A program made the position numbers and the translations under genes. Below, in pieces: positions 53,761 to 56,498 of a stretch of DNA of 56,611 bases. The notes beneath the pieces were generated by a model. It was not told where the DNA came from. It did not search any database and saw only the letters and a list, made by a program, of their open reading frames with translations. The stretch lies in the NCBI GenBank assembly GCA_009838965.1, contig VXQP01000097.1, positions 1 to 56,611 of the forward strand, written 5' to 3'. How positions within the stretch are numbered: the stretch's first letter is position 1; every line of letters begins with the position of its first letter. The stretch comes from Chloroflexota bacterium (GTDB taxonomy: Bacteria > Chloroflexota > Dehalococcoidia > Lucifugimonadales > Australimonadaceae).

Positions 53761-53828
53761 AAGCGTGCCAATTGCACCGTCCATAGGCACCTTAAAGTGC
53801 GGCCCAGCGAGCCGCCCAGCCGGGGCAA

Positions 53829-53872
53829 GGGGGGCGCCGGGGAGGACGTCGACGCACCCCCTCAAGAGGGGG
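53829..53872 (-). terminator. Terminator hairpins after the znuA-tail remnant (copy B)
   Basis: Read on the minus strand, CCCCCTC-AA-GAGGGGG (53857-53872) is a perfect 7-base hairpin just past the remnant stop. A second, imperfect GC-rich stem follows (53829-53862). The pair corresponds to the hairpins after the real znuA. Confidence 0.5.
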
Positions 53873-53880
53873 CCTGTTAG

Positions 53881-53972
53881 TTACGAGCACTTCATCGCAA
53901 GCATGCAGACTGTTCAGGTTGCCGCGCGTCAGAGCCGGCGCGCCCGACGAGTCCGCTCCCGATGGTGCTCCT
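53881..53972 (-). pseudogene. Degenerate copy of the znuA 3' end (copy B)
   Basis: The first 50 or so bases in from the TAA (complement at 53881-53883) match the last codons of znuA at 54315: TTACGAGCAC, then a CGCA...GCAG block and TTCAGGTTG, with CGCGTCAG. A one-base length change breaks the frame, so it no longer encodes the tail. It begins within about 15 bases of the stop of the cysteine-less protein gene. Confidence 0.6.
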
Positions 53973-53987: not shown

Positions 53988-54173
53988 TCAGCCGAGCGAC
54001 CCGGATAACTCTTCCGCTTCCTTGTCACTCACAATCCTGATGACCTTGCTGGAGGGGTCTTCCGCCGCTACACCGCGGACTGCCTTCCGTCCGTTCTTCA
54101 GGGTCACCAGCTCCGGGTCCTTGATGGCCACCATCTTCTTCAGCTTCACCGAATAGGCCGTCAGATCTACCAT
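53988..54173 (-). CDS. Cysteine-less DUF5679-like zinc-ribbon paralogue
   Basis: A 61-residue protein. I recall DUF5679 zinc ribbons as running AYCVKCK..., KDP..VTLKNGR, GVCP.CGTKMFRI. This protein keeps the same frame with LTAYSVKLKKMVAIKD, PELVTLKNGRKAVRGV and SSKVIRIVS. All four zinc cysteines are gone: the first pair is Ser and Leu, and the second CxxC is replaced by AAED/PSS. It has AAGGAGG 5 bases before the ATG and lies directly downstream of znuA. A natural reading is a zinc-free stand-in made during zinc starvation, as for C-minus ribosomal proteins. The family match is from memory of the motif, not a search. Function of the zinc-bearing form is unknown. A palindrome at 54207-54219 sits just upstream. 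Confidence 0.8.
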   Translation of the reverse strand: MVDLTAYSVKLKKMVAIKDPELVTLKNGRKAVRGVAAEDPSSKVIRIVSDKEAEELSGSLG

Positions 54174-54206
54174 TCCCGCCTCCTTACTATTGGGTTTCGT
54201 GTGTAT

Positions 54207-54219: not shown

Positions 54220-54261
54220 GTTGGTTATATCGCATTGCACAGCGAGCCGCCCACCAGAGCA

Positions 54262-54303
54262 GGGGGTGCGCCGGGGAGGACTTCGGCGCACCCCCCAAGA
54301 GGG
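54262..54303 (-). terminator. Terminator hairpins of znuA (copy A)
   Basis: GGGGGTGCGCCG (54262-54273) and CGGCGCACCCCC (54284-54295) form a perfect 12-base GC stem with a 10-base loop. A smaller CCCC-type hairpin lies between it and the znuA stop. No T-run follows, so termination may be partial and allow read-through into the next gene. Confidence 0.6.
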
Positions 54304-54314
54304 GCCCTCTTCAG

Positions 54315-55574
54315 TTACGAGCACTCCATCGCAGCCCGCAGGCTCTTCAGGTTGTCGCGCATCAGGCCCAGGTAGTCCTTGTGCTCGTCCAGCTCTGCCT
54401 GGGTAACGCTCTCTATCGCGTGGATCTGGTAGATGCCGGCCCCTGTCTCGTCGGCGAGAGTCCGTTCGTTCTCACCGGAGAGCACGGGTTCGAGCAGCAC
54501 CGCCGTGATGCCGAGATCCTTGATGCGGTCGGCGATGGCGGCGAGGCGCTGCGGCGATGGCTCTGCTTCCGGGGAGAGGCCAGCGATCGGCACCTGCTCC
54601 AAACCGTACGCCGCTGCGAGGTAGCCGTATGCGGCGTGAGACGTGACGAACTCGCGGTGGACGCACGAGCTGAGGCCCGCCTCGAACTCGGCGTGCAGCG
54701 CCCGGAGCTCGGAAGAGAGCGTGGCGAGGTTCGCCCGGTAGACGTCGGCGCCCTCGGGGTCCGCCTCGATCAGCGCCTCCGCGATGCGCTCCGCCTGGGT
54801 GATGGCAAGCAGCGGGTCGAGCCAGAAGTGAGGATCGAACTCGCCGTGGCCGTGGTCGTCTTCGTCATGGCCGTGGCCGTGCTCATCCTCATGGCCATGC
54901 TCGTCCTCATCCTCATGGCCGTGCTCGTCCTCGTGCTCGTGTTCGTCCTCGTGGCCGTGCTCGTCCTCGTCGTGGTCGTGCTCATCCTCGTGGCCGTGCT
55001 CGTCCTCGTCGTGGTCGTGCTCGTCCTCGTGGCCGTGTTCGTCCTCGTCGTGGCCGTGCTCGTCCTCGTCGTGGTCGTGCTCGTCCTCGTGGCCGTGCTC
55101 GTCCTCTTCCATGTGGCCGTGCTCGTCTTCGTGGCCGTGCCCGCTTTCCACGAAGGGCAGTGCCGCCTCGGGATACGCAGCCTCGACCACGATACCGGAG
55201 ATGTCATCGCCCAGGGACTCGAGCGCGCGTTCCAACCAGGGCAACAGGCTGAGGCCGTTCATCGCTATGACGTCGGCCTCGGCAATCGTAATGAGATCAC
55301 TCGCCGTGAGTTCGAACGAGTGGGCCTCGACGCCAGGGCGCACGATGGTCGCGACTTCCACCCGATCGCCGCCGATCCGTTCCGCGAAGTACTGCATCGG
55401 GTAGATGCTCGCGACCACGCTCAGTGGCTCGGATGCAGCGACCGGCGTATTTGTGGGCGGAGGGCTGGTGGGCGTATTCGTGGGGTCAGCATCGCCCGAG
55501 CAGGCGACTATCGCCAAGGCCAGCGCCCCGGCGACGAGCAGCCTGTACATATTGTTAAGGAATATTCTCGTCAT
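54315..55574 (-). CDS. znuA: ZnuA-type metal-binding lipoprotein with extended His-rich loop
   Basis: Substrate-binding protein of a zinc (or manganese) ABC importer. The 419-residue precursor has a lipoprotein signal (LALAIVAC, lipidated Cys25), then a Pro/Thr linker. The A-1 family domain has metal-ligand segments GVEAHSFEL (His85), DPHFWLDP and TSHAAYGYL. Between residues 146 and about 246 lies a loop of His, Asp and Glu repeats (units such as DEHGHEDEHDHDE), encoded by near-identical 15-36 base repeats. This is much longer than the usual ZnuA His-rich loop. GGAGGG 5 bases before the ATG at 55574 decides the start; a GTG at 55619 is in frame. Promoter and operator-like sequence match those of the Fur-family gene. 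Genes for the permease and ATPase are not in the window. Confidence 0.93.
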   Translation of the reverse strand: MTRIFLNNMYRLLVAGALALAIVACSGDADPTNTPTSPPPTNTPVAASEPLSVVASIYPMQYFAERIGGDRVEVATIVRPGVEAHSFELTASDLITIAEADVIAMNGLSLLPWLERALESLGDDISGIVVEAAYPEAALPFVESGHGHEDEHGHMEEDEHGHEDEHDHDEDEHGHDEDEHGHEDEHDHDEDEHGHEDEHDHDEDEHGHEDEHEHEDEHGHEDEDEHGHEDEHGHGHDEDDHGHGEFDPHFWLDPLLAITQAERIAEALIEADPEGADVYRANLATLSSELRALHAEFEAGLSSCVHREFVTSHAAYGYLAAAYGLEQVPIAGLSPEAEPSPQRLAAIADRIKDLGITAVLLEPVLSGENERTLADETGAGIYQIHAIESVTQAELDEHKDYLGLMRDNLKSLRAAMECS

Positions 55575-55699
55575 GTAACCCTCCGTAATCATCCTTCTGG
55601 ATTCAGCGCAAGAGTGCACGCAGGTTTCCTGTATGTACGGGTAATCTGGTGTCTTGCCGCCTTTACAGCAGGCGGCCCTCCGCCGTCCTCACGACTCGC

Positions 55700-55759
55700 A
55701 CGGTAGCAGGGCCTCTGCACACTGTCAATACTAAGTGTCAATAGTATCGAAGATGATAC
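55700..55759 (-). promoter_or_regulatory. znuA promoter with Fur/Zur-type operator
   Basis: On the minus strand TTGACA (55728 to 55723), 17 bases, then TACCGT (55705 to 55700). The -35 overlaps a near-palindrome ATACTAAGTGT (55728-55738), and TGATAC stands farther out at 55754-55759. Nearly base-for-base the same as the region at 56437-56498 before the Fur-family gene. The znuA ATG is about 120 bases downstream, so unlike the regulator it has a leader and SD. Confidence 0.75.
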
Positions 55760-55772
55760 CGCGCTTCGACCT

Positions 55773-55816
55773 TGGGGGCGCCGACATCCTCCCCGGCGCA
55801 CCCCCCAAGAGGGGGG
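55773..55816 (-). terminator. Terminator hairpins after the regulator gene (copy C)
   Basis: CCCCCC-AAGA-GGGGGG (55801-55816) and the stem GGGGGCGCCG with CGGCGCACCCCC (55773-55806) correspond to the hairpins after znuA and after copy B. Read on the minus strand they follow the second znuA-tail copy and so end the regulator transcript. Confidence 0.55.
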
Positions 55817-55822
55817 CCTCAG

Positions 55823-55905
55823 TTACGAGCACTCCTGCGCAGCCAGCAGGCTCTTCAGGTTGTCGCGCGCCAGACCGAAGTCGTTTCCGTGCTCGTCCAG
55901 CGAAC
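55823..55905 (-). pseudogene. Copy of the znuA 3' end behind the Fur-family gene (copy C)
   Basis: Translates on the minus strand to a tail ending ARDNLKSLLAAQECS, against MRDNLKSLRAAMECS in znuA. This is in frame over about 25 codons but has no start and no other part of the gene. It begins about 24 bases after the regulator stop. It is a remnant of a lost znuA paralogue or of a duplicated 3' module. Confidence 0.75.
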
Positions 55906-55928: not shown

Positions 55929-56429
55929 TCAGTGTGCGTGCACGTGGGTCCCGTGCATATGAATGTCTTCGCCTCCCTGGCCGCTCTCCCGACAGACGTC
56001 ACAACGGTGGTACAACTCCAGCCGGTGCCCGACGAGTTCGGTCCCGATGTGGGCGTTCATGGCACGGAGCATCCGTTCGATAGAAGGGTGGCGAAACTCG
56101 TCGATGCGTTCGCAACCGACACAGACGAGGTGGTGGTGATGATGTGCGCCGTCCAGGGAGTAGCGCGGCGAACCGCCCGGCATGGTGGTCTTGCAGAGGA
56201 TCCCAGCCTCCCCGAGCAGGCGCAGGGTGCGATAGACGGTGGCCCGGCCCAGAGTCGGCAACCCGGCTACGATCTCCTCAGCGCTGAACGAGCCGGTCCG
56301 CCGAGCGAGCGTCCTCGCCAGTTGACGGCGCGGCCAGGTCATGCGGCTGCCGTGCTCCTCCAACGCCGCAAGGATGTTGGACTCGGCCTGCATGACCGCG
56401 CTAGCCGATTTCGGCGAGGCCGTTCCCAT
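55929..56429 (-). CDS. Fur-family metalloregulator, probably zinc-responsive (Zur-like)
   Basis: A 166-residue Fur-family repressor. It has the winged-helix domain (RMTWPRRQLARTLARR, LGRATVYRTLRLLGEAG), the HHHHH stretch of the metal sites and two CxxC pairs (CVGCERID, CDVCRESG) for structural zinc. The C-terminus is His-rich (HMHGTHVHAH). Position beside znuA with a shared operator suggests control by zinc. The TTG at 56465 would extend it by 12 residues but falls inside its own promoter -35; the ATG at 56429 is 7 bases after the -10, so a leaderless message is likely. It probably represses itself. Confidence 0.9.
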   Translation of the reverse strand: MGTASPKSASAVMQAESNILAALEEHGSRMTWPRRQLARTLARRTGSFSAEEIVAGLPTLGRATVYRTLRLLGEAGILCKTTMPGGSPRYSLDGAHHHHHLVCVGCERIDEFRHPSIERMLRAMNAHIGTELVGHRLELYHRCDVCRESGQGGEDIHMHGTHVHAH

Positions 56430-56436
56430 GGCTCGG

Positions 56437-56498
56437 ACAGTAGCGCTGCCTTTGTGTACTGTCAATACTCAGTATCAATAATATACGGGAATGATACT
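56437..56498 (-). promoter_or_regulatory. Fur-family gene promoter with Zur-type operator
   Basis: On the minus strand TTGACA (56465 to 56460), 17-base spacer, TACTGT (56442 to 56437), and the ATG 7 bases after. The perfect palindrome ATACTCAGTAT (56465-56475) overlaps the -35. AGTATCA (56471-56477) and TGATACT (56492-56498) form a second, wider inverted repeat. The same set of elements stands before znuA. Confidence 0.75.

Follow-up and report, generated by a model that had tools for sequence, protein, structure and literature searches.

A cysteine-free DUF5679 paralogue beside znuA as a probable zinc-sparing substitute in Dehalococcoidia

In B. subtilis, cysteine-free (C-minus) paralogues of ribosomal proteins are controlled by Zur, namely RpmEB (L31*), RpmGC (L33*) and RpsNB (S14*) (PMC5007448, PMC6103462). 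L31* displaces the zinc form and frees zinc, while S14* serves new synthesis only (PMC5007448). Zinc-independent paralogues also exist for non-ribosomal proteins, with DksA2 among them (PMC6103462). The locus described here resembles the ribosomal system of B. subtilis in its small protein with two CxxC motifs, its cysteine-free paralogue, its putative zinc repressor of the Fur family and the presence of both forms in one genome. In contrast to L31, L33 and S14, DUF5679 does not count among the recognised ribosomal proteins, and what it does is unknown. Similar to DksA2, it would represent a Zur-regulated zinc-free paralogue of a non-ribosomal zinc-finger protein, but DksA2 is unrelated and occurs in proteobacteria. 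No DUF is named in the Zur review that was consulted, no mention of DUF5679 was found in the open-licence literature, and a literature search for SAR202 in combination with Zur found nothing. Zinc-free swaps have been described for ribosomal proteins and for a small number of further proteins, and the DUF5679 case stands out by its apparent, unusual reach into the archaea.

The window, i.e. the whole analysed stretch of 56,611 nucleotides, belongs to a 3.0-Mb genome, and the named genomes closest to it are metagenome bins of Dehalococcoidia/SAR202. The relevant features are the following.

53988..54173, minus strand: C-minus DUF5679 protein of 61 aa (P0001), assigned by sequence, profile and alignment comparison
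54179..54185, minus strand: AAGGAGG Shine-Dalgarno sequence of the C-minus gene, from sequence; context kept in two genomes of the genus (G004, G005)
54260..54297, minus strand: strong GC hairpin (GGGGGGTGCGCC...GGCGCACCCCC) between znuA and the C-minus gene, without a T run
54315..55619, minus strand: znuA, substrate-binding protein of a zinc ABC transporter with a His/Asp/Glu repeat loop (PF01297, E 3e-69)
55721..55743, minus strand: predicted Zur-type operator of znuA, TATTGACACTTAGTATTGACAGT, by sequence match
55929..56465, minus strand: Fur-family regulator, zur-like (PF01475, E 4e-25); metal not determined by sequence
56458..56480, minus strand: predicted operator of the zur-like gene, TATTGATACTGAGTATTGACAGT, by sequence match

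The C-minus protein, MVDLTAYSVKLKKMVAIKDPELVTLKNGRKAVRGVAAEDPSSKVIRIVSDKEAEELSGSLG, starts with ATG and contains no cysteine. Together with the Shine-Dalgarno sequence this bears out the cysteine-less frame of 61 residues described in the earlier note. Its further claim that all four zinc-binding cysteines are replaced also stands: both CxxC knuckles of DUF5679 are absent, and the alignment places S8, L11, A36 and P40 at the four positions. P40 is aligned less surely and adjoins a one-residue insertion. Copies in the genus share 89-95% identity (G004, G005) and 84% (G003) with that of the window. With dN of 0.04-0.07 against dS of 0.21-0.42 and differences mainly in third codon positions, the window copy is a real, selected gene under purifying selection.

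Taken alone, the protein scores 17.3 bits (E 0.0055) against PF18930, under the Pfam gathering score of 27 bits, and a related C-minus protein from a 2.3-Mb genome (G016) reaches 21.0 bits. Because the single sequence remains under the cut-off, the claim of homology rests on profile comparison. Here, the C-minus alignment (A1) matched the four-cysteine alignment (A2) with an hhalign probability of 99.2 (E 1e-19, 51 columns). The proposed membership in DUF5679 is therefore strongly supported from profile to profile, but not by the single sequence. As judged from profiles and predicted models, the C-minus protein is homologous to DUF5679. Both forms share the core AYxVKxKK, TLKNGRxAxxG and FRI, in which T, KNGR, A and G are invariant. 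The strand order predicted by AlphaFold is also the same, with strands 5-8/13-24/30-36/43-48 in the C-minus and 2-5/10-21/27-32/39-44 in the four-cysteine (C-plus) model (pLDDT 85 and 88 for the two models). Since the alignment used for the C-minus model included some C-plus rows, this agreement of folds is not fully independent. Apart from the missing cysteines, the C-minus form differs by a second knuckle that is one residue longer and by an additional C-terminal helix, which is absent from the C-plus model. A sequence search of the PDB revealed no solved structure of either form, its only match being a short CxxC stretch of aS34 (E 0.014). Foldseek gave no match below E 0.5 for either model, and the EF-P, eIF5A and ribosomal names in its lists were set aside for this reason.

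The gene neighbourhood agrees with the earlier description. The znuA gene lies 141 bp upstream of the C-minus gene on the same strand, and the Fur-family gene, expected at about 2 kb, was found 1.8 kb upstream. Exact copies of the operator TATTGAYACTNAGTATTGACAGT precede both zur (56458-56480) and znuA (55721-55743). One further site within 3 mismatches exists in the 3.0-Mb genome, before a second zur-like gene, and a control with the reversed pattern gave 0 sites. Throughout the genus, genome-wide scans find the operator confined to zur and znuA promoters. As the listed TTG start of the zur-like gene overlaps the operator, the ATG near 56429 is the more likely start of translation. The matching operator that had been claimed is thus present at zur and znuA, while the window offers no operator or promoter-like site specific to the C-minus gene. 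This gene would therefore rely on read-through past the hairpin, which is possible without a T run, although attenuation is not excluded. Expression probably proceeds from the Zur-type znuA promoter; co-transcription is inferred, as expression data are lacking. As a separate observation, the znuA 3' end recurs, together with a GC hairpin, in three imperfect copies at 53820-53960, 54254-54393 and 55796-55901; these are what is left of znuA tandem copies surrounding zur, znuA and the C-minus gene.

The regulator certainly belongs to the Fur family. Its scores are better against Fur than against Zur models and remain under every equivalog cut-off, so Fur and Zur cannot be told apart by these models. 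This leaves room for a switch that responds to iron, manganese or peroxide, with a Fur, Mur or PerR regulator and a transporter for Mn or Fe, all the more as Mn transporters are included in PF01297. We consider such a switch improbable. The znuA product scores best against the zinc model AztC (E 4.8e-44) and carries a His-rich loop, and the two DUF5679 forms differ by four cysteines, which suits the saving of zinc.

The genome of the window also contains the expected cysteine-containing paralogue, a four-cysteine DUF5679 with 59 bits (G000:C90:40507-40617). C-plus proteins above the cut-off occur in 123 of 147 relatives. The C-minus form was found in thirty-odd relatives, as a conserved clade in SAR202/Dehalococcoidia, and all bacterial C-minus proteins fall on one side of a branch with starred support. 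A few of these proteins retain one or two cysteines (L111, L112, L115, L119), as expected of intermediates. A scan of named genomes with the pattern T[LM]KNGR[KR]A[VI], which misses forms that lack it, confined C-minus to Dehalococcoidia/SAR202 (some titled just Chloroflexi) and Nitrosopumilus. No C-minus relative was found in viral contigs. At the C-plus loci that were checked, there were no zinc genes beside the gene and no operator of 12/14 upstream of it.

Zinc context was defined as znuA, znuB, znuC or zur within 5 kb of the C-minus gene, or a Fur-family palindrome in its promoter that matches TGATACTnAGTATCA or TGAGAATnATTCTCA at 12 or more of 14 positions. Consensus A derives from the promoter of zur in the window; consensus B first emerged upstream of C-minus genes and was afterwards checked at znuA and zur sites. 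Among 59 C-minus genomes, we observed zinc context in 25 of the 38 that also encode C-plus, the other 13 having none, compared to 0 of 21 C-plus-free genomes (Fisher p 2e-7). No kinship correction was applied to these counts, but the context spans at least 9 family codes, and C-plus was lost in at least 4. One genome (G320) was counted as C-plus-less despite a fragmentary match of 23.5 bits, and its reassignment would leave the pattern as it is. The palindrome (at least 12/14) preceded 14 of 61 C-minus genes compared to 18 of 743 other ORFs. All three operator sites of the 2.3-Mb genome G016 lie in a single cluster, before the RRM/C-minus group, zur and znuA. In G071, the two exact sites of the genome coincide with the C-minus and znuCB promoters, and a site with one mismatch precedes zur. 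In three genomes (G041, G048, G089), type B sites lie upstream of znuA or in the interval from znuA to zur, in another (G030) between zur and C-minus. The proposed conservation of C-minus next to znuA/zur, or under the same operator, thus extends to relatives from at least 9 families.

Further support comes from sites at which one form has taken the place of the other. In one relative (L260), C-plus is located between pheT-pheS and an aldo-keto reductase gene, with trpS downstream. Seven SAR202-type genomes carry C-minus at this very position (L081, L084, L085, L086, L093, L096, L098; in L081, trpS would lie past the contig end), and C-plus was not found in them, some of these bins being small and incomplete. 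G142 carries C-plus and C-minus in tandem, and its genus mates G106 and G133 retain only C-minus. The genomes of group f23 likewise encode C-minus only, near their sole S14, which is of the long type. These replacements, coupled with the loss of C-plus, argue that C-minus can substitute for C-plus; equal function remains an inference from sequence. Long-type S14 is the zinc-free type of this protein. In f23 (L042, L044, L047, L048) the sole long S14 lies about 1.2 kb from the sole cysteine-less DUF5679, and the occurrence of C-minus alone in some genomes parallels that of this S14. A ribosomal S14 switch was looked for in the window's own genome but not found: all 16 tested genomes have one S14 copy each.

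In principle, C-minus could have acquired a new, zinc-regulated role in the uptake or handling of zinc, such as that of a regulator or chaperone of the transporter, and would then not be a substitute. Its position inside the znu clusters of several genomes, the extra C-terminal helix and its separate clade could be understood in this way. We regard this as unlikely, if somewhat less so than a different metal, since C-minus occupies the place of C-plus at the pheS/trpS site of genomes that lack C-plus, 21 genomes have it as their only form and show no zinc context, and both forms retain the TxKNGRxA core.

A comparable arrangement occurs in archaea. Nitrosopumilus sp. b1 encodes a cysteine-less DUF5679 (AYDVKARKK...SPETG) with 27.8 bits, compared to the Pfam cut-off of 27, surrounded by genes for ZnuB, ZnuC, ZnuA and regulators of the NikR and DtxR types (L126); three C-plus genes are located elsewhere in this genome. 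The same znu neighbourhood was observed in four more loci (L232, L234, L239, L240), giving five Nitrosopumilaceae in total with C-minus beside znuABC. Of 151 genomes in the Nitrosopumilus group, 148 have DUF5679 homologues. With all columns, bacterial and archaeal C-minus proteins join in the tree (support 93/92). Without the cysteine columns this topology obtains a p-AU of 0.50, and a grouping of the archaea together is likewise not rejected (p 0.17), so one and two origins cannot be distinguished by the tree. In one archaeal DUF5679 (L251, 1330-1458) the first CxxC is intact and the second reduced (CPETG); it is possibly an intermediate.

A chance neighbourhood, in which a drifting cysteine-less copy happened to arrive beside znuA, would be compatible with the presence of C-minus in only 4/6 genomes of the window's genus and with the unstable locus indicated by decayed znuA copies; in one genome (G005), znuA is present in several copies and C-minus in two. 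This explanation is, however, barely tenable given the purifying selection on C-minus, the recurrence of zinc context in at least 9 families, the match of C-minus operators to those of zur and znuA, and the archaeal parallel.

We therefore favour, with a probability of roughly 0.8, the reading that C-minus is a zinc-sparing, cysteine-free DUF5679 paralogue, conditional in the presence of C-plus and constitutive where C-plus was lost. Against this reading stand the hairpin and missing operator of the window copy, the Fur-like scores of the regulator, the 13 C-plus-bearing genomes whose C-minus gene has no zinc context, and a Zur-like site upstream of a C-plus gene in G089. The zinc-sparing strategy suggested for DUF5679 in the earlier note is thus supported, in the absence of expression data, by operators, the C-plus paralogue and the conserved zinc neighbourhood. 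Binding of zinc by C-plus, and its absence in C-minus, is deduced from the cysteine pattern only. In the presence of zinc, a Zur-type repressor would occupy the operators and silence zur and znuA together with the C-minus gene downstream, with the four-cysteine DUF5679 from another locus performing the function; this repression by zinc is likewise inferred. On a drop in zinc, release of the repressor would allow ZnuA and C-minus to be produced together, and C-minus may then replace the zinc form, maintaining its function without binding up zinc. Whether C-minus would displace C-plus and free its zinc, or serve new synthesis only, is undecided. In lineages without the zinc form, C-minus would act as the sole copy outside zinc-operator control.

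The pattern also suggests zinc sparing in ammonia-oxidising archaea. SAR202 are abundant uncultured marine bacteria, of whose zinc regulon a first sketch is obtained here. Zinc-free copies tend to exist for zinc proteins that are indispensable or rich in zinc. As cells tend to back up such proteins, the pattern marks DUF5679 as an important zinc protein; that the zinc-bearing form is "abundant and important" is nevertheless an inference. Four genomes carry DUF5679 after infB-rbfA-truB (L253, L257, L261, L263), and in L260 it lies beside the tRNA-synthetase genes pheST/trpS. From this gene context, a translation-linked role may be suspected. Only tentatively, we propose that DUF5679 is an unrecognised, translation-linked zinc protein of Chloroflexota and Nitrososphaerota, acting there as an essential factor or as a store of zinc, and that both domains evolved or exchanged a zinc-regulated cysteine-free substitute. 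If true, this would be the first zinc-sparing paralogue switch for the DUF5679 family and, to our knowledge, for archaea. Zinc limitation and replacement alleles would offer a direct handle on its role.

Several minor observations concern the neighbourhood of C-minus genes and zinc transporters. In genomes with C-minus only (L117, L118, L120, L122), a conserved inverted repeat (CCGAGTTggttcAAACTCGG / GAGTTgaACTC) of varying sequence precedes C-minus by about 50-60 nt; whether it is an operator or an RNA hairpin is undetermined. A protein of 170-188 aa starting with MWWFK adjoins C-minus in two families (L066, 8992-9797; L071, 8525-9091). The copy tested had no Pfam match, and an RRM protein lies alongside in one family. 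ZnuA-type frames of about 735-985 aa in G004, G033, G113, G116 and others contain PF01297 halves separated by about 400 aa, an unidentified inserted domain or fusion. In G089, a Zur-like site with 1 mismatch (L179, 1501-1515; G089:C13:9043-9057) lies between amt and C-plus DUF5679, about 230 bp before C-plus and shared with the divergent amt; activation, or control of amt, would fit. A second Zur-like site of this genome (L185, 1501-1515; G089:C15:2542-2556) precedes the gene of a lipoprotein-like protein of 207 aa with a His/Asp repeat, which is likely a further zinc-binding member of the regulon.
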